A stretch of DNA of 64,000 nt from contig JAQXVU010000048.1 in assembly GCA_029225085.1 (NCBI GenBank), positions 1 through 64,000 of the forward strand. The letters run 5' to 3'. Source of the stretch: Eggerthellales bacterium (GTDB taxonomy: Bacteria; Actinomycetota; Coriobacteriia; Coriobacteriales; Eggerthellaceae). The position numbers and the translations under genes were made by a program. Positions 7,500-50,263 of this stretch are shown here, piece after piece. Numbering within the stretch: the first letter of the stretch is position 1; every line of letters starts with the position of its first letter. The notes beneath the pieces are model-generated. The model was not told the DNA's origin. It saw only the letters and a list, made by a program, of their open reading frames with translations, and did no database searches.

Positions 7500-7605
7500 A
7501 CAGCTGGTACCGAAAGGTTTAATCGCGCAAGAAGCGGCCCGCCGAGGTGGTCCGTAAGGTGTGACTTTGCGACCCCTGCTGTCTACGGACGGCAGGGGTC
7601 GTTTT
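7500..7605 (+). promoter_or_regulatory. probable ribosomal protein L10 leader with attenuator
   Basis: The 5' region of rplJ ends in a terminator-like hairpin: CGACCCCTGC (7570-7579) pairs with GCAGGGGTCG (7592-7601), followed by TTTT. This is the position and architecture of the known autoregulatory L10 leader, where the L10/L7-L12 complex binds its own mRNA. I see the attenuator directly; the protein-binding fold is inferred from position. Confidence 0.6.
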
Positions 7606-7672
7606 CATGCATGGTGAACGATCCCTCCCACTGCGCGGAACCTGAGCGTATGTGAAAAGGAGGTGTACGAAC

Positions 7673-8158
7673 ATGGCTAATGCAAAGAACATTGAGAACC
7701 TCGCTGCTATCAAGGAGGATCTGGCTGATATCACCGCTCTCTGGGTGGTCGACTATCGCGGTCTGACCGTTAAGCAGATCCAGCAGCTGCGCCGCGACGT
7801 CCGTGAGGCTGACGGCGTAATGAAGGTTTACAAGAACACTCTGGTACAGAAGGCTATCGAGGAGCTGGGTCTGGTTAACATCGACTCCGTCCTGGAGGGT
7901 CCTTCCGCCTTCGTGTTCGCTAAGGGTGATGCTGTTGCCCCTGCAAAGGCTCTGAAGGACTTCGCTAAGACCAATCAGAACCTGGTGCTGAAGGGTGGCA
8001 TCATGGACGGTGAGTTCCAGGATGCAGCTGCTTTCGAGACTATCGCTTCTCTGCCTTCTCGCGACCAGCTCCTGGGTCAGATCGCTTCTTCCCTTACCGC
8101 TGTTGCTTCTCAGCTGGCTATCGCCCTGGGCGAGATGTCCGAAAAGGAAGCTGCTTAA
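7673..8158 (+). CDS. rplJ: 50S ribosomal protein L10
   Basis: A 161-aa stalk-base protein that anchors L7/L12 dimers to 23S rRNA. It carries the family features ALWVVDYRGLTVKQIQQLR and the VYKNTLVQKA region, with the helical C-terminal tail that binds L12 dimers. ATG at 7673 follows AAGGAGG (7657-7663). rplL comes next, as usual. The normal upstream partners rplK-rplA are absent, and the gene is preceded by a probable autoregulatory leader. Confidence 0.97.
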   Translation: MANAKNIENLAAIKEDLADITALWVVDYRGLTVKQIQQLRRDVREADGVMKVYKNTLVQKAIEELGLVNIDSVLEGPSAFVFAKGDAVAPAKALKDFAKTNQNLVLKGGIMDGEFQDAAAFETIASLPSRDQLLGQIASSLTAVASQLAIALGEMSEKEAA

Positions 8159-8240
8159 ACCGCTGCCGCCAGGCGGCGGCCTAGCAACTTTTGTATTATG
8201 TGACGTTGCCTAAGTTGGCAACAGTTGAAAGGAAATGAAA

Positions 8241-8606
8241 ATGGCTCTTACTAACGAAGAGATCATTGCTGCTCTGGGTGAGAAGACCCTGATCGAGCTG
8301 GCTGCACTCCGTGACGCTATCTGCGAGGAGTTTGGTGTATCCGCTACTGCTGCTGTTGCAGTTGCTGCTGGTCCTACTGAGGCCGCTGAGGAGAAGTCCG
8401 AGTTCGACGTTGTTCTCGAGGGCTTCGGCGACAACAAGATCGCTGTTATCAAGGCTGTTCGTGGCATCACCGGTCTGGGCCTGAAGGAGGCTAAGGCTCT
8501 GGTAGAGGGCGCTCCTGCTCCTATCAAGGAGGGCGTTGCAAAGGACGAGGCCGAGAAGATGAAGGCCGAGCTGGAAGAGGCTGGTGCAGCTGTAACCCTG
8601 AAGTAA
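8241..8606 (+). CDS. rplL: 50S ribosomal protein L7/L12
   Basis: A 121-aa acidic stalk protein recruiting translation factors to the ribosome. It has an N-terminal dimerisation helix, an Ala-rich hinge around residues 36-50, and the canonical C-terminal domain ([36 protein letters not shown]). Two ATGs exist. The one at 8241 has a proper seven-base gap from AAAGGA, while the one at 8235 is too close. A strong terminator follows, so rpoB/rpoC are not co-transcribed here. Confidence 0.98.
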
Positions 8607-8640
8607 TTCAGGTTGCTGCATAATCGCTTTTCGCAACTTT

Positions 8641-8673
8641 AAAGGGTGGGTGCTTCGGCACCCACCCTTTTTT
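8641..8673. terminator. intrinsic terminator after rplL
   Basis: A perfect 13-bp stem (8641-8653 with 8658-8670) with a TTCG tetraloop and six T residues. The symmetric A/T flanks would also stop the convergent AEC permease transcript. Confidence 0.95.
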
Positions 8674-8807
8674 GTGCGCTAACCCAGTTCTGGGCGAGTG
8701 CCGGCTTGCGCCTGGGACTGTTTTTGGTGTTATGCACGGAAGTTCATCGCGGGTTGCTCGTCGGCATAACGCACTTGGCGTTGCGCGAGCCGGGGCGATT
8801 TTCGGAG

Positions 8808-9755
8808 CTACAGCACGCTCAGTAGCGCGATGAGCGCAGGGAAGATGGGGATGCAGGCTAAGGTTGTGATGACGGTGCCCGAAGCGGCCAGGTTTATGTC
8901 CTGGTCATAGCGCTGGGCGAAGGCTTGCACCATGGCTCCTGCGGGGGCTGCGAACATGATGATGGTGGTGGCCAGGATCAGCTTGTCGGCCACGAAGGGG
9001 GCAAGGACCACTGCCAGCAGCGCGGGGATAGCCAGCTGGCGAATGACCACGTAGGCATACATGCGCCAATCGGTGAAGATGGCCTTCAGATCCGAATCCG
9101 CCAGTACGATACCCACGATGACCATGGCCACGGGGGTGCAGATACCGCCCATGAGGCTCAGGGTGCTCTGTGCGACGTCGGGCATGGTGAGCCCGCTGAA
9201 CATCCAAACAATGGCGAAGACGCAGGCAACCAGGGGCGCATTCCAAAGGGTCTTCCACGTGATGCGGAAGCCAGTGAGCTTGTGCTGCCCCTTTTGGGCT
9301 GACTCTAAGGCGGCGATTCCCAGCGATCCCATGAACAGGTTGCACATGAGGACAAATATGCTGGAAAGCATGACGGTCTGGTCGCCGTACACAGCTTGCA
9401 GGACGGGGAGCACCACGAAGCCGGTGTTGGTGCAGAGGCTCATGAACACGTAGAGGTTGCGCTGGGTCAGGGGAGTCTTCAGCACTGCGTTAATGAGGAT
9501 GGCCACGATGAAGAGCAGCAGGAACTCCGCGAAGGCTAGCACGAAGGTGGGGACCAGCTGGGAGGCTACGTCCTCGAGGTGCACCTTGCTCACCGAGGCG
9601 ATGATGAGGCAGGGGAGCGCCACGTGAATGAGCAGGCTGTTGAAGGGCAGCGTCGCCTCATGGGTCACGTAGTTCAGCTTTCGTAGGAAGAATCCCACGA
9701 GGATGAGAATGAACATGACGGAGAGCTGGGATATGGCTGCCTGAGCTGCTTCCAC
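8808..9755 (-). CDS. AEC (auxin efflux carrier) family permease
   Basis: A 315-aa membrane protein of the AEC family, whose bacterial members export or exchange malonate, malate and other organic acids. About ten hydrophobic segments are visible, beginning SQLSVMFILILVGFFLRKLN. The conserved CTNTGFVVLPVLQAVYG region and the C-terminal MFAAPAGAMVQAFAQRY segment are present. The frame stays open to 10127, but GTG at 9755 has an AAAGG six bases upstream and precedes the first membrane helix. Longer versions would add an implausible Arg-rich tail. It diverges from the flippase gene and converges on rplL. The substrate cannot be told. Confidence 0.85.
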   Translation of the reverse strand: MEAAQAAISQLSVMFILILVGFFLRKLNYVTHEATLPFNSLLIHVALPCLIIASVSKVHLEDVASQLVPTFVLAFAEFLLLFIVAILINAVLKTPLTQRNLYVFMSLCTNTGFVVLPVLQAVYGDQTVMLSSIFVLMCNLFMGSLGIAALESAQKGQHKLTGFRITWKTLWNAPLVACVFAIVWMFSGLTMPDVAQSTLSLMGGICTPVAMVIVGIVLADSDLKAIFTDWRMYAYVVIRQLAIPALLAVVLAPFVADKLILATTIIMFAAPAGAMVQAFAQRYDQDINLAASGTVITTLACIPIFPALIALLSVL

Positions 9756-29452: not shown

Positions 29453-29459
29453 ATTGAAC

Positions 29460-30662
29460 ATGAGCAAGTCCGTTCTGCTGCAGCGTGGGGGCACGCTGCT
29501 CGTTGCGTTGGTGGCTACACTCGCGGTGGCTTTCGCGGTATGCCTGTCGCCCGCAACGACTCAGGCTCAGGCCGCCGATAGCCTGAATGCCTCCTATTCC
29601 ACGAAATCCGGCTCCTTTAAGACCGTGAGCATGGGCAAGACTGCAGGAAGCACTTCGTCTTCCGCAAAGGCCCTGTTGGCTGTGAAGGTTTCTAAGAAGA
29701 GCAAGCTTTCCGGCAGCGTGTCCTACTCTGTGTACTGCAAGGGCAAGAAGTACTCCGCCTCTAACGGAAAGGCTGCCGGCAAGAAGGTCGCCATGCAGGC
29801 CATGACCGTGAAGCTGTCGAAGTCCCTGGGCAAGAAGTACGACGTGTACTATCGCGTGTACGTGAAGGGCTATGGCTGGCTGTCCTGGGCCAAGAACGGT
29901 GCCAAGGCCGGTACCAGCGATAAGGGCAAGTACGTCACCGCATATCAGGTGAAGCTGGTTAAGAAGAAGGGCAAGGCTCCTTCCGGAACTTACACCGGCG
30001 GTACCTATGTGAACAGTGCGTTTTTTGGTCTCACCGGCAACTTGAAGGCTGACAGCATCATCGCCACTACGGCGGGATCGAAGAGCCTGAACAGCTGCCT
30101 GTCTTGGGTGGCGAGCAACGTGGTCGACTCTAACGGCAACGTTTCGAACCTGAAGAGCACGTCTAACCTGAAGAAGGCCGCCATCCGCGCCTTCAACGAC
30201 AAGAAGGGCGATTGCTATAACTTTACGGCCGCTATGTACTATCTAGCCAAGTACAAGGGCTACAAGGTGAAGGCCATCGATGGCCAGCGTGGCACCTGCC
30301 TCACATCCGCAAAGTACTCCCTGGTAGACGGCTACCTGGTAGATTCTGCGGGTACCGCCTATAACGAGGACGCCTATGCTGATGGCGCGGTTGTGGAAGT
30401 GCAGGATCCCCTCCTGAACCGTGGCTACTGGGTAGTGGATGGCGCTGTTCCCCTGCGTTATTCCACGTATAGCTGGTGCGAGGTTGTGGTGAATGGCCAG
30501 ACCCTCATCTATGACCCCACCTATGAGCGTACCTGCAAGTATCTTTACAAGTTCGCCTCTGGCTCGTACAAGGCCTACGGCATGACCTATGACTACGCAG
30601 CTGCTCATGCGCTGAGCGCTGATCCTACGGTGGCTCCGAGAACTCAGGCCTACCGTAAGTAG
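29460..30662 (+). CDS. secreted ChW-repeat / transglutaminase-like protein, catalytic His substituted
   Basis: A 400-aa exported protein. The signal peptide ends near AQA (residue about 38). Residues about 45-175 contain ChW-type repeats (VYVKGYGWLSWAKNGAKAGT), a cell-surface module. The C-terminal half is transglutaminase-like. The Cys is present in KKGDCYNFTAAMYY and the Asp in IYDPTYE, but the usual His before Trp is replaced (YSTYSWCEVVV has Tyr/Ser). It may therefore be a non-catalytic binder. ATG 29460 is preferred over TTG 29454 because AGGAAGGA then sits eight bases away. A lipoprotein gene and the dlt operon follow. Confidence 0.85.
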   Translation: MSKSVLLQRGGTLLVALVATLAVAFAVCLSPATTQAQAADSLNASYSTKSGSFKTVSMGKTAGSTSSSAKALLAVKVSKKSKLSGSVSYSVYCKGKKYSASNGKAAGKKVAMQAMTVKLSKSLGKKYDVYYRVYVKGYGWLSWAKNGAKAGTSDKGKYVTAYQVKLVKKKGKAPSGTYTGGTYVNSAFFGLTGNLKADSIIATTAGSKSLNSCLSWVASNVVDSNGNVSNLKSTSNLKKAAIRAFNDKKGDCYNFTAAMYYLAKYKGYKVKAIDGQRGTCLTSAKYSLVDGYLVDSAGTAYNEDAYADGAVVEVQDPLLNRGYWVVDGAVPLRYSTYSWCEVVVNGQTLIYDPTYERTCKYLYKFASGSYKAYGMTYDYAAAHALSADPTVAPRTQAYRK

Positions 30663-30680: not shown

Positions 30681-31631
30681 GTGAAAAATGCTCTGATGGG
30701 CATGAGGACTGCGGTGGTGGCATTTGCCGCCGCAGCCCTCTTCGCGTTGTCTGGTTGCGGTATGGGAAATGCCGGAACCATTGGCAACGACGATGCCTCT
30801 ACCTCTATAGCTCTTACCAACGAACTGGGCGCTCCCGTTTGCTCCGTGAACGTACGCGAGCAGGGCAAGGACTCTGGCGGGGACCCGCTGCCTCAGTCTG
30901 GCTACCTTAATGAGGGCGCTACGGCCCAGCTGAAGGTTGATGCCGCCGCCGGCACGCTGTATGACGTGACCTTGGCTTGCATTAATGGCGCGACCTATGA
31001 GCTGCATGGGGTTCCTTTAGCCGACGTGCAGGACGCCTTTGCGAAGGTAAGCCCCTCGACGGGTTTGGGGTATCTGACCTACACCAGCGTGAAGCTGGGG
31101 GACGAGATTAATACGCTCCCTGACGAGAAAGCCTTCAGCGAGAAATCGGCCTACGAGGCTTCCCTGGTGAAGGTTTCCTTCACGTCGTCTCACGCCACGG
31201 TGACCGTGGGTAAGAAGAGCTGCAAGGGTTCCTGCAGCCTGAAGGTGGTAGGAGGCAAGAAACTCACCTTCACGGTGAAGGCTCAGGATGGCTATGAGAT
31301 CAGCAAGGTGACCGCCACCAGTGCCGGCGCCAAGGTAAAGGTGAAGAGGACTTCCTCCGGCGCCTATCGCATCAGCGCCGATGACGTGGCCAGCGGCCTG
31401 ACCATCAAGGTGACTGCCAAGAAGGTGCAGACCGAGCAGAATACCTGGAACGACAACCAGTACTACACCTACAACCAGGGCGGATCCGGCACCGACGATG
31501 CAGGATCGGGCAATGACTCCGGCAGCGGCTCTGGCAGCAAGGCTGACAGCGGCCCTGCCAAGCCTTCCAAACCAACCCAGCCTACCGAGCCCTCCGATTC
31601 CGGTACCGGCGACAATTGCTTCGACCTCTAG
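30681..31631 (+). CDS. lipoprotein with beta-rich repeat domain and Gly/Ser/Pro tail
   Basis: A 316-aa lipoprotein with lipobox LSGC at Cys26. Residues about 165-255 form a bacterial-repeat-like beta domain (KKLTFTVKAQDGYEISKVTA). The C-terminus is low-complexity Gly/Ser/Asp then Pro/Lys/Thr. GTG 30681 is preceded by GAAAGGA at ten bases, slightly far, so an internal Met is possible. It lies 18 bp after the transglutaminase-like gene and just before dltA, whose ribosome-binding site overlaps its stop. A role at the cell surface is likely; the exact function is unknown. Confidence 0.82.
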   Translation: MKNALMGMRTAVVAFAAAALFALSGCGMGNAGTIGNDDASTSIALTNELGAPVCSVNVREQGKDSGGDPLPQSGYLNEGATAQLKVDAAAGTLYDVTLACINGATYELHGVPLADVQDAFAKVSPSTGLGYLTYTSVKLGDEINTLPDEKAFSEKSAYEASLVKVSFTSSHATVTVGKKSCKGSCSLKVVGGKKLTFTVKAQDGYEISKVTATSAGAKVKVKRTSSGAYRISADDVASGLTIKVTAKKVQTEQNTWNDNQYYTYNQGGSGTDDAGSGNDSGSGSGSKADSGPAKPSKPTQPTEPSDSGTGDNCFDL

Positions 31632-31639
31632 GAGGGACT

Positions 31640-33286
31640 ATGAGCGAGTTTCTAGATTCGGTCCTTTCCTGGGCGGAGAAGACCCCCGATGCCGTTGCCT
31701 ATGAGAACACCAAGGGCGAGCGCCTGACCTATGGCCAGCTTGCTCAGAAGTCTGCGGCATTGGCCTGCTATCTGCAGAATGCCTGCGAGGAGAAGGCCCC
31801 CGTCATTTTGTACGGTCACAAGGGAGCCGCCATGGTGGTGGGCATGTTCGCTTGCATGCGCAGTGGCCATGCCTACGTGCCCATCGACGTCTCGTTTCCC
31901 GCAACCCGCATTCAGCTCATCGTGAACCAGCTGCCCGACGTGGCGGCGCTGTGCACGGAGCCAGTAGGGGAGGAAAATCCCCTGGCCAGCCTTGCTGGTG
32001 CGGTCTCCCCTGAAGGTTTGGAAGAAATCTGCGCCGAGCCTGTGTCCGATGAGGCGCTGGCTGCTCTGCGGCCCATCTCCGGAGACGATGGTCAGTACAT
32101 CCTGTTCACCTCGGGTTCTACCGGAACCCCGAAGGGCGTGGTGCAGCGGGCAGAGAGCATCGACCTGACCAGCCGCTACTTCCGTACCCTTCTCCCTGAA
32201 GGGGAGGGCTTGGTGTGCTTTAACCGGGCGCCCTTCTCCTTCGACCTGAGCATCTTCGACTTCCTCATGGCCCTGCCGTGCGGTCATACCATGTTCTCCC
32301 TCGAGAAGAATGTGGAAGAGAGTCTGGCCCAGACCTTCGACGCTTTGGCAGGGGCAGGGGTGAACGTGTGGGTTTCTACCCCGTCCTTCCTGAACATGTG
32401 CCTGACGGATCCGTCCTTCTCCCCGGAGCTCTTGCCCCAAGTGAAGGTCTTCATCATGTGCGGCGAGACCCTGCATAACGCCACGGCTGCGACCTGCTTG
32501 CAGCGCTTCTGTGAAGCCAGCCTGGTGAACATGTACGGTCCCACGGAGACCTGCGGCGCAGTGACCCATAGCTACATCACGGCGGATATGGCCGCAGACC
32601 CAGCGCCCCTGCCGGTAGGCCGTCCCAGCGCCTACTCCCAGATTGTTATTGCCGACCCCGAGACCTTGCAGGAGGTACCTGCTGGCGAGCGGGGCGAGAT
32701 CCTCATCTTGGGAAACACCGCAGCTGCCGGCTATTACGGTGACGAGGAGAAGACCAAGGCCGCTTTCTTCCTGCGGGAGAATGCCCGGGGAGAGCTTGCT
32801 CGCTGCTATCGCACTGGTGACGAGGGCTACCTCGATGACCAGGGGGTTCTGCAGTATTGCGGCCGCTTCGACCTTCAGCTGAAGGTGGGTGGCTACCGCA
32901 TAGAGCTGGGGGATATCGAGGAGAACCTGGCCAGCCTGCCACAGGTGGCGGCTTGCTGCGTGCTGCCCGTATCCCGCAACGGCATGGTGTCCTCCCTCTG
33001 CGCTCATGTAGTTCCCGAGGCCGGTATCGCCGGTGACCGTCATCTCACCAAGGCTTTGAAGGAGGCCCTGAAGGAGCTTCTTCCCGCCTATATGATTCCC
33101 CGCACCTTCGCCTATCACCAGGCGCTGCCTACCAACGTGAACGGCAAGGTCGACCGTAAGGCTCTGGCGGCAGAGTCCGACAAGCCGTCCGCTCGTGGCG
33201 GTGCGGCGGCTGCTCCCGATGCCGAGGCTGGTGCGGCAACTGCCCGTAACGCCGGGGTTGGCGCAGCGGAAGGAGGGCGCGGCTGA
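31640..33286 (+). CDS. dltA: D-alanine--carrier protein ligase with Ala/Gly tail
   Basis: A 548-aa adenylation enzyme that activates D-alanine and loads it onto DltC for teichoic-acid D-alanylation. Visible motifs are the P-loop FTSGSTGTPKG, MYGPTETCGAV, YRTGDEGYLD and the catalytic Lys in NGKVDRK. Normal DltA ends soon after this point; here about 30 extra residues of Ala/Gly-rich sequence follow, built on 30-bp DNA units. ATG 31640 follows AGGAGGG. The stop overlaps dltB by one base. Confidence 0.94.
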   Translation: MSEFLDSVLSWAEKTPDAVAYENTKGERLTYGQLAQKSAALACYLQNACEEKAPVILYGHKGAAMVVGMFACMRSGHAYVPIDVSFPATRIQLIVNQLPDVAALCTEPVGEENPLASLAGAVSPEGLEEICAEPVSDEALAALRPISGDDGQYILFTSGSTGTPKGVVQRAESIDLTSRYFRTLLPEGEGLVCFNRAPFSFDLSIFDFLMALPCGHTMFSLEKNVEESLAQTFDALAGAGVNVWVSTPSFLNMCLTDPSFSPELLPQVKVFIMCGETLHNATAATCLQRFCEASLVNMYGPTETCGAVTHSYITADMAADPAPLPVGRPSAYSQIVIADPETLQEVPAGERGEILILGNTAAAGYYGDEEKTKAAFFLRENARGELARCYRTGDEGYLDDQGVLQYCGRFDLQLKVGGYRIELGDIEENLASLPQVAACCVLPVSRNGMVSSLCAHVVPEAGIAGDRHLTKALKEALKELLPAYMIPRTFAYHQALPTNVNGKVDRKALAAESDKPSARGGAAAAPDAEAGAATARNAGVGAAEGGRG

Positions 33287-33289
33287 TGT
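33200..33289 (+). repeat. 30-bp repeats forming the DltA tail
   Basis: GGTGCGGC-type units begin at exactly 33200, 33230 and 33260 (the last is GGCGCAGC). They encode GAA-starting decapeptides at residues 521-548 and include the dltB ribosome-binding site. Confidence 0.8.
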
Positions 33290-34479
33290 CCTTCTACATC
33301 GATCCCGCCTTCTTCATCATTGTGGGCGTTGCCATGGTGCCAGCGGTGCTGCTGGGTCTTCAGGGCAGGGCCAGCAAGACCTATGGCCTGGGCCTGTCTC
33401 TGGTGATGCTGGGCTTCCTGTTCTGCCGTGACCTGGGCGGCTTGGCTGCCTTCGCCGTGTTTCTGGCAGTGTCCTGCGGCGCGGCGTTCGCCACCCTGCA
33501 TTGGTTCACCGCCGAGGATCCCCGTCGCATCCTGAAGTATCGCCTTGCGTTGGTGGTGGCCCTGTTGCCCTTGGTGTCCGCCAAGGTGTCCGCCGTCTTC
33601 GACGCCAATATCCTGGGATTCCTGGGCATCTCGTACCTGACCTTCAAGTCCGTGCAGGTCATCATCGAGATTCGCGATGGCCTCATCACCCAGATGAGCT
33701 TCGCCGACTACCTGTACTTCCTGGTGTTCTTCCCCGTGTTCACCTCGGGCCCCATCATGCGCAGTCGCGACTTCATGGCTCAGATCGCCGAGCCTCCCGA
33801 CCATGATGAGTATGTGGGCCTCCTGGCGAAGGGCCTGGGCTGGTTCGTGAAGGGCGTGGTGTACAGCTTCCTTTTGGCCGGCATCTTCCACTGGCTTCTG
33901 TGGTTCGGCCCCTCGGCCATCGGAACCGCCACCACCTCTGACGCGGTGCTCGCTGCCCTCGTGCAGGGTCTGTGCTACGGCCTGTACCTGTTCTTCGACT
34001 TCGCAGGCTACAGCCTCATGGCCATGGGCGTGGGCGCTGCCATGGGCGTGCGGGTGCCCGCCAACTTTAACGCCCCCTTCGCCAGCCTGGATATCAAGGA
34101 CTTCTGGAATCGCTGGCACATCACCCTGTCCTTCTGGCTGCGCGACTACGTGTTCATGCGAGTGAGCCGGGTGGCGGTGAAGCGCAAGTGGTTCAAGGAC
34201 CGCGCCTACACGGCCTGCCTGGGCTTCATGTGCAACATGACCCTCATGGGTTTGTGGCACGGCCTCACCGTCGACTACATCGCCTACGGCATCTACCATG
34301 GCCTGCTGCTGAGCATCTGCGAGCTCTACCAGCGCAAATCTAAGTTCTACAAGGCTCACAAGAAGGAGACCTGGTACAAGGTCCTGTCCTGGTTCATCAC
34401 CATGGTGGCAGTGTTCTTCGGCTTCGCCTTGTTCAGCGGACAAGTAACCACCCTCGTGTTAGGAGCAATGAATGTCTAA
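33286..34479 (+). CDS. dltB: MBOAT-family D-alanyl transfer protein
   Basis: A 397-aa multi-pass membrane protein of the MBOAT acyltransferase family, which passes D-alanine from DltC across the membrane. The conserved His lies in LMGLWHGLTVDYIAYGIYHG. FWNRWHITLSFWLRDYVF and PIMRSRDFM are also typical. AAGGAGGG (33270-33277) precedes the TGATG overlap with dltA. Confidence 0.95.
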   Translation: MSFYIDPAFFIIVGVAMVPAVLLGLQGRASKTYGLGLSLVMLGFLFCRDLGGLAAFAVFLAVSCGAAFATLHWFTAEDPRRILKYRLALVVALLPLVSAKVSAVFDANILGFLGISYLTFKSVQVIIEIRDGLITQMSFADYLYFLVFFPVFTSGPIMRSRDFMAQIAEPPDHDEYVGLLAKGLGWFVKGVVYSFLLAGIFHWLLWFGPSAIGTATTSDAVLAALVQGLCYGLYLFFDFAGYSLMAMGVGAAMGVRVPANFNAPFASLDIKDFWNRWHITLSFWLRDYVFMRVSRVAVKRKWFKDRAYTACLGFMCNMTLMGLWHGLTVDYIAYGIYHGLLLSICELYQRKSKFYKAHKKETWYKVLSWFITMVAVFFGFALFSGQVTTLVLGAMNV

Positions 34480-34717
34480 GGAAGCAACCTCCCAGGAGAT
34501 CCTCGATCTGGTGTGCGAGATCTGCGGCGATGACTGCGTGTATGACGAGCTCGACCTCGATCTGTTCGAGGAGGGCCTCTTCGACTCCCTGGCCGCCATC
34601 GAGTTTCTGGTGGAAGTAGAGGAGCGCTTCGGCGTTTCCATCGCTCCTACGGAGCTTGAGCGCCAGGAGATGAACACGCCTCAGAAGATCGTCGATCGCA
34701 TCATGGAGCGTCTGTAG
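34472..34717 (+). CDS. dltC: D-alanyl carrier protein
   Basis: An 81-aa acyl-carrier-like protein. The phosphopantetheine Ser39 is in EEGLFDSLAAIEFLV. Its start overlaps the end of dltB by eight bases, with TAGGAGC five bases upstream. It carries D-alanine from DltA to DltB. Confidence 0.95.
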   Translation: MSKEATSQEILDLVCEICGDDCVYDELDLDLFEEGLFDSLAAIEFLVEVEERFGVSIAPTELERQEMNTPQKIVDRIMERL

Positions 34718-34720
34718 CCC

Positions 34721-35881
34721 ATGACCAAGCGCTCGGAACATAGCCTGAGCCCCAAGGTCTTGCTGGGCGGCGTGCTGGCAGGTGTCGCTCTCTTCGGAGC
34801 GGTGGTGGCCGGTGCCGAGGCCCTGTTGCCCAGTCAGAGCCATGTCGATTCTCAGAAGAACTACGGCTACGTGTACTCGGGAGCCAAGTCTTCGAGTGTG
34901 GAATTCAACCTGCTGGGGAATGGGGACAACTCCTACCTCTTGTTCGGGTCCTCGGAGCTTTCTACCTCTGCATCGGCGGTGCCGGAAGTGCCCGCCAAGG
35001 TGATGGCCACCTACGATTTCGGCTACGACCTGACCTATGTGGGCGAGGCCTACGATCAGAGCCTGTGGCATGCCATGGCTCTGGGTGCCTATGCTCCTGC
35101 CTACGATAAGTCGAAGGCCGTCATCATCGTGTCCCCTGGTTGGTTCTCCGACGGAGGCCTTGATGCGGACACCTTCGGCCTGCGCTTCTCCTACAGCTTG
35201 TATCGCCAGTTCTGCGAGAACCCTGCCATCTCTCAGGAATCGAAGGACTACCTGGCCTGGCGCTTGGCGCAGCAGGGCATTGATGATTCCACCATTCAGG
35301 CAGGACTGCGAACCCTGCCTCAGGATTACCTGAACGATGCGGTCATGGCCTTCCAAGACGACCTGACTTTGCGCCAGGAGCTGGTGGAAGTGCGGAATCA
35401 GGGCTCTGAGCCGGCGGAAAAGCAGCCAGCCCCGAGCTTTGACGAGCTTTACGCCCAGGCCCGTGCCGATGCCGCTGCGGTGAGCAGCAACGACTGGGGT
35501 ATTCAGGACGCCTACTACGAGCAGAAGATCCTGCCCAGCCTCGATAGGCTGAAGGACATGCACGCTGACGAGACCTATACCGACACCCCTGAGTACGACG
35601 ACCTGACCTTCTTTTTGAAGGTGGCTCGGGAAGTGGGGATCGAACCTTTGGTGGTGGTGTCGCCCATGCAGGGAGACTTCTGCGACTGGGAGGGCATCAG
35701 CAAGGACGCGCGGGACAGGTGCTACAGCCGCATTCGGACCATCTGCCAGCAGGCTGGTGTGGAATGCGCCGATTTCTCCGACCGCGAGTACCAGCGTTAC
35801 TTCATGTGCGATCCGGTGCACTTCGGTTGGGTTGGCTGGGTTGCAGTAGAGGAGGCCATAGATGACTTCATTGCGGGATAA
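34721..35881 (+). CDS. dltD: DltD, D-alanyl transfer to teichoic acid
   Basis: A 386-aa protein with one N-terminal membrane anchor (about residues 12-35) and an extracellular SGNH-like domain. The catalytic Ser motif is LLFGSSEL (residues 73-80) and the Asp-His pair is in CDPVHFGWVGW near the C-terminus. It acts outside the membrane in the last steps of D-alanine transfer. It starts three bases after dltC. Its 3' end overlaps the dltX-like gene. Confidence 0.94.
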   Translation: MTKRSEHSLSPKVLLGGVLAGVALFGAVVAGAEALLPSQSHVDSQKNYGYVYSGAKSSSVEFNLLGNGDNSYLLFGSSELSTSASAVPEVPAKVMATYDFGYDLTYVGEAYDQSLWHAMALGAYAPAYDKSKAVIIVSPGWFSDGGLDADTFGLRFSYSLYRQFCENPAISQESKDYLAWRLAQQGIDDSTIQAGLRTLPQDYLNDAVMAFQDDLTLRQELVEVRNQGSEPAEKQPAPSFDELYAQARADAAAVSSNDWGIQDAYYEQKILPSLDRLKDMHADETYTDTPEYDDLTFFLKVAREVGIEPLVVVSPMQGDFCDWEGISKDARDRCYSRIRTICQQAGVECADFSDREYQRYFMCDPVHFGWVGWVAVEEAIDDFIAG

Positions 35882-36026
35882 GGCCTGGGAGCTGCTGCAA
35901 GCGCACCCGGCTCTGACCTTGGTGCTGTTGGCGCTGGTGGTAGCCGGAACCCTGGCCCTGACCTTCTGGTTCGTGGTGTTCTCCGGCTTGGCTTCCTCGG
36001 CGGACTTCATCTACAGCCAGTTCTAA
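35862..36026 (+). CDS. dltX: DltX-like small membrane protein
   Basis: A 54-codon gene: a short basic start, one membrane helix (ALTLVLLALVVAGTLALTFW, residues 17-36), and a C-terminus ending FIYSQF. Known DltX proteins are about 50 aa, have one helix, and end in a conserved FIYxxF motif whose Tyr is needed for D-alanine transfer. All three features match. GAGGAGG (35849-35855) lies six bases before ATG, and the gene overlaps the end of dltD by 20 bases. In most described Firmicutes operons dltX precedes dltA; here it is last. The small size makes it easy to miss. Confidence 0.87.
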   Translation: MTSLRDKAWELLQAHPALTLVLLALVVAGTLALTFWFVVFSGLASSADFIYSQF

Positions 36027-36047
36027 GGCTTCAGTTGTGCGGATTGT

Positions 36048-36065
36048 CGCCGCAAGGCGTTTTTT
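36048..36065 (+). terminator. weak terminator at the end of the dlt operon
   Basis: A four-base CGCC / GGCG stem with a GCAA loop and six T residues, immediately before the next gene's ribosome-binding site. Readthrough into that gene is likely. Confidence 0.4.
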
Positions 36066-36083
36066 ATGAGAGAGGAGAGAGTC

Positions 36084-37619
36084 ATGATGCAGGAAGCGAT
36101 GCAGATGGAAAGCTCTCGGACGTGGGGTGCGAAGACCCACAGCGTGAGGCGAGCAGGTGTAGTGGCTGCCTTCATGGCGCTGGTTGTTGCGCTGTGCGTA
36201 GCTATGGCGGGTCCGGTGACCCAAGCCCAGGCGGCGGTGCCTTCTTCCGCCAAGGCCATCAGCGCTCAGGGTACTTGGGTCACTAGCAATTCGAAGGTGT
36301 ACTACAAGTACGATGGCAAGAAGGCCACGGGCTTGGTGAGCATCGGGCAGAAGACCTACCTGTTCAGCAGCTCCGGCGTGCAGCAGAACGGCTGGCGCAA
36401 GGTGGGCAGCACCTATCGCTACTTCGCCATGGGCAACGGCGCTAGTGGTGCCATGGCCTATTCCAAGGTGGTAAACGGCGTGAAGCTTGGCAGCACCGGT
36501 GCGGCATCGGTCAGCAATGAGACGGTGCGGGACGAGCTGAAGACCATGGTGCGGGCCCAGACCCTCCTCGACTCCTTGGCGAAGCCCACTGATTCCAAAC
36601 CAACGAAGCTCAGGAAGTGCTTCAACTACCTGAAGAGCAACAAAATCACCGAGCGGGTGCTGCACGGCTGGACGTCCGCTTCCGGCTGGCATCGCCTCTT
36701 CGCCAACCAGATCTTCATTAAGAAGGCCGGCGACTGCTATTCCATGGGATGCGCCATGGCCTACCTGGGCAATGCCATTGGCTACAAGAAGTGCGAGTGC
36801 GTGTCCTCTGGCGGCCATGGTTGGGCCCGCATTAACGGCTTGGTGTACGACCCCGAGTGGTCTGCCCATCATCCCCACGACTACTACGCCGTGAATGGCC
36901 GCTATCGGGACATGAACTACGCCCCTAACAGCGCATACGTGGTGAATCTGAGCCGTACCACCGTCTGGAAGGGAAAGGCCTTGAAGACGACCTCTTCTGC
37001 TAAGACCGGTCTGGTGAAGAAGGGCGATTACTACTATTACTATTCCACCTCCGGCAAGATGGCGAAGAGCGCCTGGAAGACCGTGGGCAGCAAGAAGTAC
37101 TACTTCGGCTCTGACGGCAAAGCGGTGAAGGGCTCGAAGAAGATCTCCGGCACCTACTACATCTTCAACAGCAAGTGCACTCTTTCCACGGGGTCCGGCA
37201 CCCATCTGGTGACGGTGGGCTCCTCGAAGTACCAGGCCACCAAGAGCGGCAAGGCCAAGAGCGGCTGGAGCTCCGACAAGCGCAAGTACTTCCAGAAGAG
37301 CGGAAAGATGACCACGGGCATCGCCCTGGTGTCGGGAAAGCTCACCTACTTCACCAGCTACGGCAATAAGAACGCGGACAAGTCGAAGGCTCTGCAGACT
37401 GCGGCGGCAAACACCTCCGACGCCAGCAAGCTGCTGTCCCTCATGGGCACTCCCAAGAAGGTCCTGAAGCAGGATGCCTGCGTTCCCACCCAGTGCCCCA
37501 ACGGCCATTGGCATGAGGACTGCGTAGATGGCGTGTACACCTACAGCAACGTGACCATCTGGACGGTCATCGTGCAGTGCGGTGACGAGACCTTCGAGAG
37601 CATCGCGGAAATCGCCTAG
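36084..37619 (+). CDS. secreted transglutaminase-like protein with cell-wall-binding repeats
   Basis: A 511-aa exported protein; the signal peptide ends near AQA at residue about 49. A short wall-binding repeat region (YKYDGKKATGLVSIGQKTYL) precedes a transglutaminase-like domain with Cys in KKAGDCYSMGCAM, His in SGGHGWARING and Asp in VYDPEW. Further glucan/choline-binding-type repeats follow (YYYYSTSGKMAKSAWKTVG, KKYYFGSDGKAVKGSKKI). Unlike its upstream relative the triad is complete. ATG 36084 has AGAGGAGA upstream; earlier in-frame ATG 36066 has none. It may crosslink or trim surface proteins or peptidoglycan. Confidence 0.88.
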   Translation: MMQEAMQMESSRTWGAKTHSVRRAGVVAAFMALVVALCVAMAGPVTQAQAAVPSSAKAISAQGTWVTSNSKVYYKYDGKKATGLVSIGQKTYLFSSSGVQQNGWRKVGSTYRYFAMGNGASGAMAYSKVVNGVKLGSTGAASVSNETVRDELKTMVRAQTLLDSLAKPTDSKPTKLRKCFNYLKSNKITERVLHGWTSASGWHRLFANQIFIKKAGDCYSMGCAMAYLGNAIGYKKCECVSSGGHGWARINGLVYDPEWSAHHPHDYYAVNGRYRDMNYAPNSAYVVNLSRTTVWKGKALKTTSSAKTGLVKKGDYYYYYSTSGKMAKSAWKTVGSKKYYFGSDGKAVKGSKKISGTYYIFNSKCTLSTGSGTHLVTVGSSKYQATKSGKAKSGWSSDKRKYFQKSGKMTTGIALVSGKLTYFTSYGNKNADKSKALQTAAANTSDASKLLSLMGTPKKVLKQDACVPTQCPNGHWHEDCVDGVYTYSNVTIWTVIVQCGDETFESIAEIA

Positions 37620-49103: not shown

Positions 49104-50263
49104 GGGTCGCAGGCTCCTTTCAGTGAGGTGTTGCCAATGACCAGGGCGGCAAGATCGCGGGTTGCATGTCCTGGGTCGGGGAGAGTGTAGGTGGAGACGA
49201 AGGCTTCGAACTCTTCGGTGGGGTAGGAGCCACGCAGGAAGCCTTCCACGGCCTCGAAGATGCGCTGAGGATCTTCGGCGTACAGGTCGTTGAAGAGCTG
49301 GCGCAGGTTCAGGTTCAGCCCGTTGTTCTGGGCGTAGGTGTCGAAGTCGAAGCAGTACAGCAAGAAGGGGACTCGAGCGGAAGCAGCTTCTATGAGGACG
49401 GCGGAGTAATCCGTGATGACCAGGTCTGCGACGGAGAGGATCTGCAGGGTGCTGAGGTCAGGGCAGGTGATGAAGGAGTCCTGCAGGTCAGCGAGGTGGG
49501 GAGTTAGGGGCTGGTTGGGATGTTCGCGGATTACCAAGGTGAAGTCGGGTGACGCCGCGAGGCCTTCGATGAGCTGGCGCTGTTGAGGGATGATCTGCCC
49601 CTCGCAGCCCCGTCGGAAGGTGGGGGCGTACACCACTACGGGCTTGTCGGCGAGCTCGGGGTGGCGGCCCAGGGCCTCTTTGCGCACCTGGGGCTTTCGG
49701 GAGGTGAGCAAATCGAGGCGGGGAAGGCCGGTGTTGCGGATGCGGGATTCGTCGCAGCCGAAGGATTGGCAGTAGAAGGGGTTGAAGGCAGGCGCTCCCG
49801 CGATGACGTAGTCGTAGCCCTCGTGCATGTGCAGGAGGCTGGCGGTGGAAGCTGACCTTCCATCCCTCTTTCCCACGGAGGCCAGACCGGATTGCTTGAT
49901 CTTTCCCAGGGAGTGCCACATCTGAATGACGGTGAGCTGGGGCTTATGGGAGAGCAGGGACACGGCGGGCCAGTAGGCGTCGAGGACGCAGACCTGGCTG
50001 GTGGCCAGCAGCGCCATGCTCTTTAGGGTGGCCAGGGCGAAGCGACCTAGCCCCGAGCTGGATGCCTGACGGCAGCAGATGGCGCGAATCTCCGCCTGGG
50101 GGCAGAGGGCGGCAATCTCGTCTTGCAGGAGCTGAAAGTCGGTAGACAGGGTGTCGGACTGCCTGCTGAGAAACAGGATGCGCCCAGGCTTCACGGGGCG
50201 TAGTTTCATGAGGGCGTAGAGAGCTCTCATGAGAGAGGTCCCGATACAGATAAGCGCTTTCAC
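49091..50263 (-). CDS. CDP-glycerol glycerophosphotransferase family protein (TagB/TagF-like)
   Basis: A 390-aa membrane-associated glycerophosphotransferase-like enzyme of teichoic-acid synthesis. Catalytic features are present: His in MWHSLGKIKQSG, REHPNQ, and DLVITDYSAVLIEAAS. The frame opens at 50311, but GTG 50263 has AAGGAAAG about eight bases upstream and gives the normal start. It heads the three-gene operon. With the dlt operon nearby, it suggests a polyol-phosphate polymer. The exact polymer is not determined. Confidence 0.88.
   Translation of the reverse strand: MKALICIGTSLMRALYALMKLRPVKPGRILFLSRQSDTLSTDFQLLQDEIAALCPQAEIRAICCRQASSSGLGRFALATLKSMALLATSQVCVLDAYWPAVSLLSHKPQLTVIQMWHSLGKIKQSGLASVGKRDGRSASTASLLHMHEGYDYVIAGAPAFNPFYCQSFGCDESRIRNTGLPRLDLLTSRKPQVRKEALGRHPELADKPVVVYAPTFRRGCEGQIIPQQRQLIEGLAASPDFTLVIREHPNQPLTPHLADLQDSFITCPDLSTLQILSVADLVITDYSAVLIEAASARVPFLLYCFDFDTYAQNNGLNLNLRQLFNDLYAEDPQRIFEAVEGFLRGSYPTEEFEAFVSTYTLPDPGHATRDLAALVIGNTSLKGACDPCAM

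Follow-up and report, generated by a model that had tools for sequence, protein, structure and literature searches.

A frame at the 3' end of an Eggerthellaceae dlt operon very probably encodes DltX, in a common but little noticed gene order

The dlt operon and its last frame

The window analysed here, a 64-kb stretch of DNA from an Eggerthellales bacterium, contains on its forward strand a complete dltABCD set and, directly downstream and encoded together with it, a short open reading frame (35862-36026). The first gene, dltA (31640..33286), encodes a D-alanine--carrier-protein ligase, matched by the Pfam AMP-binding family and, 5 bits short of its cut-off, by NCBIfam PRK04813 (470.7 bits, E 4.8e-141); the mechanical ORF runs from 31616, and the ATG at 31640, which follows AGGAGGG, was read from the sequence as its start. 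It is followed by dltB (33286..34479), encoding an MBOAT acyltransferase (TIGR04091, E 4.2e-132; solved DltB 6bug, E 2.7e-71) whose C-terminus lacks FxYxxF, by dltC (34472..34717), encoding the D-alanyl carrier protein (TIGR01688, E 2.9e-22, above cut-off), and by dltD (34721..35881), encoding an SGNH-type D-alanyl transferase (TIGR04092, E 5.2e-77, above cut-off; solved DltD 6o93, E 1.4e-35). Since the gene 5' of dltA stops at 31631, eight bases ahead of it, there is no space for a dltX before dltA. Secreted-looking proteins are encoded on both sides of the operon: the upstream one (29454-30662) shows ChW and transglutaminase-like matches, and the other, encoded right after the short frame (36066-37619), has choline-binding repeats.

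The short frame starts with an ATG, comprises 54 codons with the translation MTSLRDKAWELLQAHPALTLVLLALVVAGTLALTFWFVVFSGLASSADFIYSQF up to its stop, and overlaps the 3' end of dltD by 20 nt, the dltD stop ending at 35881. A Shine-Dalgarno-like AGAGGAGG (35848..35855, forward strand), also read from the sequence, lies within the 3' end of dltD, 6 nt ahead of the ATG. The encoded peptide has a single hydrophobic stretch, with Arg and Lys only ahead of it, and terminates in the hexapeptide FIYSQF (36006..36023), whose Tyr codon occupies 36012-36014. The frame thus stands as it was described in the earlier note, overlapping dltD and with one helix and a FIYSQF end. Just 3' of it, a weak terminator-like hairpin with a T run (36038..36063, forward strand) could tentatively mark the end of the operon, although its folding is no better than that of shuffled sequences and, for this reason, it is not counted as evidence.

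Conservation and family membership of the short peptide

In the host genome (1.93 Mb), the nearest named relative of DltB is that of an uncultured Enterorhabdus sp. (62% identity), by which the organism, previously guessed to be a probable actinobacterium, can be placed among Eggerthellaceae-like Coriobacteriia. DltD is present in 36 of the 149 genomes searched (the window's own counted), and a short ORF with a transmembrane (TM) stretch and an end of the type [F/P]xYxx[F/Y], hereafter X, adjoins dltD in 35 related Coriobacteriia regions as well as in the window, usually directly after dltD. The scan of related dlt loci proposed in the earlier note therefore finds both the frame and its C-terminal motif conserved. 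Two exceptions fall outside the count of complete loci: L060, where the contig end falls inside X, and L056 (genome G096), where a DltD-like gene extended at its C-terminus stands alone, neither dltB nor X being nearby. The X ORFs of L048 and L059 are long (202 and 142 codons, respectively, counted between stops), and a stretch rich in Lys, Arg and Pro precedes their helix.

Ser41 and Tyr51 are invariant in the alignment of the 36 Coriobacteriia sequences, and the C-terminal Tyr is invariant in all 82 sequences aligned, comprising these 36 (alignment A1), 36 that are mostly from Clostridia (A4) and 10 from Bacilli (A3).

The shortness of the ORF, together with its lack of any family-model match, could suggest a frame that happens to stay open across the end of dltD and ends in FIYSQF by accident. 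Against this, the X frame and its motif are kept in all complete related loci, and ORF 35862-36026 is the sole case in the 64-kb window of a TM stretch combined with an F.Y..F end before the stop, a combination absent from all 30 simulated Markov windows. Across the dlt loci taken from named genomes (942 kb), 61 ends of this kind were counted on the dlt strand, as opposed to zero on the other one. Moreover, the mean entropy of the X frame in related loci is higher at third codon positions (1.37) than at first (0.84) or second ones (0.62), which is a coding pattern. The probability of a chance frame is thus practically negligible.

When 396 genomes of the phylum were scanned with the X profile, strong matches occurred only in those carrying DltD. 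There is exactly one in the window's genome, and no second dltX was found upstream of dltA or elsewhere in that genome. In Gordonibacter (L083, L084), an upstream 63-codon ORF ending in IFYDYF was weighed as a possible additional X but discarded, its helix being poor and the ORF being absent elsewhere.

Regarding family models, the window ORF gives no match in Pfam at E <= 10 nor in NCBIfam at E <= 1, so that the remark in the earlier note about so short a gene escaping standard gene calling is borne out at the level of the Pfam and NCBIfam models. The Pfam DltX model (PF12459, DUF3687), built on Bacilli-like sequences and with a cut-off of 25 bits, finds all 10 sampled Bacilli sequences. The window ORF goes unmatched by it, and the best Coriobacteriia relative reaches 20.1 bits (E 4.6e-4), below the cut-off; matches at E <= 10 are obtained for 5/36 Coriobacteriia X sequences, several of the sub-threshold ones running to the last position of the profile. 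Among 36 X-last sequences, mostly from Clostridia, 12 are matched at E <= 1 (best E 6.9e-5). A profile search of the PDB with X returned no DltX structure and only chance TM matches.

Direct comparison of profiles connects these groups. The Coriobacteriia X profile aligns with that of Bacilli DltX (hhalign, E 1.4e-6, probability 90) and with that of Clostridia X (A4; E 4.4e-11), and the A4 and A3 profiles align with each other (E 1.7e-10). None of 100 column shuffles reached the Coriobacteriia-Bacilli or the Coriobacteriia-Clostridia score, also when the TM block was kept. Taking into account that, apart from the last six residues, X bears a weak likeness to Bacilli DltX, and that this likeness stays below Pfam cut-offs, it might be argued that X is a convergent shuttle peptide, non-homologous to Bacilli DltX and independently evolved to serve DltB and DltD. 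However, the profile match spans 40-49 columns to both Bacilli and Clostridia X, beyond what helix-keeping shuffles attain, the Clostridia sequences are intermediate, as the A4-A3 alignment indicates, and the genomic partner is identical throughout. Such convergence is highly improbable, and the window ORF very probably belongs to the known DltX family.

Gene order and the dltD-dltX pair

Earlier surveys, which counted Pfam-family members or BLAST matches, located dltX ahead of dltA in all but a few cases, and almost only in Firmicutes (PMC3783018, PMC5541007). When the contigs of named genomes were searched here, the window DltD alone matched nothing, and the loci were obtained with a DltB alignment; the 80 named loci of the order survey were picked by DltB similarity and are consequently biased toward Coriobacteriia-like DltBs. 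X was found in 76 of these 80 dltB loci, the remaining four being cut by contig ends. The X-first order appears in only 12 loci of this survey, all from Bacilli and all on one side of a single branch of the DltB tree (SH-aLRT 100), so that it corresponds to one change on this tree. Outside this clade the commonest order is ABCDX, present in Coriobacteriia, in the sampled Clostridia and, within Bacilli, in Gemella and Allofustis; D-X-A-B-C, B-D-X-A-C, A-C-B-D-X and C-X-D also occur. In two Collinsella loci (L063, L065), the operon carries two dltD copies, in the order A-D-B-C-X-D.

The earlier note had taken X-first as typical of described Firmicutes operons, which is right for the order described in the literature (PMC3783018, PMC5541007), whereas in the surveyed loci this order is limited to one Bacilli clade. 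The emphasis that it placed on the last position in this host should be corrected, because X-last is the commonest arrangement outside that clade, recurs in many gut bacteria and is therefore no peculiarity of the host organism. Likewise, given this restriction of X-first in the survey, a position upstream of dltA does not define the DltX family. X-first is likely to be the derived order, on an unrooted DltB tree and a sample biased to Coriobacteriia-like DltBs. In the literature searched, no description was found of the X-last order of dlt loci, those of Clostridia, Gemella and Allofustis included, which is not proof of its absence.

In nine Coriobacteriia loci of the tree set, PxYxx[F/Y] replaces FxYxxF. 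In these loci (L058, L062-L066, L079, L080, L085), the X beside dltD ends in PxYxxF or PxYxxY (PVYAEF, PAYAAY, PIYEGF, PVYENF) and DltD is divergent; one genome (G007) has dlt loci of both the FxYxxF and the PxYxxF kinds. Mapped as a label, PxYxx[F/Y] needs one change on the DltD tree versus two on the DltB tree. A clear case is found in Adlercreutzia, where the X of A. mucosicola ends in FVYEQF and that of A. hattorii in PVYENF. Identity between the two species is 86.7% for DltB and 86.1% for DltC, as against 36.3% for DltD and 38.5% for X. From these sequences, dltD and dltX seem to have been exchanged together in Adlercreutzia while dltB was retained; from this one clear case we hypothesise that dltD-dltX exchange may be a general rule. 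At the A. hattorii locus (L079), a 508-aa MBOAT encoded just 3' of the dlt operon (7565-9091) ends in NPFIYFQF, a fused shuttle motif lying next to a dlt system with a separate X.

On a broader view, to which we would give an even chance, dltX would be an old partner of dltD, and the D-X pair would move and diversify as a module against a conserved dltB. The ABCDX order would be widespread, X-first having arisen later in Bacilli through one rearrangement, and the PxYxx[F/Y] motif of a part of the Coriobacteriia (Collinsella, an Olsenella and Adlercreutzia hattorii) would be suited to a divergent DltD.

Proposed role and relation to known systems

FxYxxF has been reported as the acyl-shuttle motif of DltX: DltB transfers D-Ala from DltC onto the Tyr of this motif, and DltX hands it to DltD (PMC12148441). 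Other MBOATs carry the motif fused at their own C-terminus (PMC12148441). An FxYxxF-type motif is absent from the C-termini of all 32 related DltBs examined, so that a separate carrier is expected, and ORF 35862-36026 is the only candidate found. Taking into account that the genome has no other X and that its DltB has no fused shuttle motif, this ORF is very probably dltX, the fifth gene of an Eggerthellaceae dltABCDX operon, encoding a single-pass membrane peptide whose N-terminus is predicted to lie inside and its C-terminus outside. The assignment to DltX made in the earlier note is thereby supported, since conservation of frame and motif, linkage to dltD, profile homology and the absence of another carrier are established; how the peptide is oriented in the membrane, its acyl-Tyr chemistry and the acceptor polymer are inferred. 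The peptide is predicted to act as an acyl-Tyr shuttle between DltB and DltD.

It could also be thought that X, although a genuine membrane peptide of the Dlt system, serves to keep DltD and DltB together, as a scaffold or assembly factor, instead of carrying acyl groups. X lies beside dltD on either side and has seemingly been exchanged with it, and conservation extends to a Ser and to hydrophobic residues where the helix ends, all of which would suit such a function. Nevertheless, the most conserved point of the peptide is the C-terminal Tyr, as expected of a chemical carrier, and this Tyr is the reported acyl acceptor in both DltX and PatA (PMC12148441). A purely structural role is accordingly given only a small probability, and the carrier function is preferred.

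With respect to the acceptor, the sulfatase family containing LtaS finds no match in the host genome, which has four matches to TagB/TarF-type glycerophosphotransferases, one of them within the window (49139-50218), and one to the LicD family, outside the window. This gene content suggests that the D-alanylated polymer is probably not LtaS-made LTA.

D-alanylation is being investigated as a target for drugs. In the Bacilli studied, DltX is needed for teichoic-acid D-alanylation (PMC5541007), and a recent work on the dltDABC operon of C. difficile names no X (PMC10642750). That dlt operons outside Bacilli are described without X can be attributed to the gene being short, under family-model thresholds and usually placed after dltD. 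A model made from Coriobacteriia, Bacilli and Clostridia X sequences would recover dltX in Coriobacteriia and Clostridia, preventing incomplete dlt reconstitutions, while the PxYxx[F/Y] variant and the Adlercreutzia dltD-dltX exchange offer natural tests of which hexapeptide residues are recognised by DltB and which by DltD.

Compared with known systems, the window X resembles Bacilli DltX (PF12459; e.g., that of B. thuringiensis or S. aureus) in its size of about 50 aa, its one hydrophobic helix, its C-terminal FxYxxF with an invariant Tyr and the location of its gene in a dlt operon with dltABCD. However, Bacilli DltX precedes dltA and is detected by Pfam, whereas the window X follows dltD and lies below Pfam detection. 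PatA-type MBOATs, among which the acyl-Tyr chemistry has been shown in C. jejuni PatA (PMC12148441), bear the same hexapeptide, but fused to the MBOAT, while in the window it belongs to a separate peptide and DltB lacks the motif. The X peptides encoded in the dlt loci of Clostridia, Gemella and Allofustis (A4) share with the window X the last place, the motif and the strongest profile match (E 4.4e-11), and they too are for the most part invisible to Pfam.
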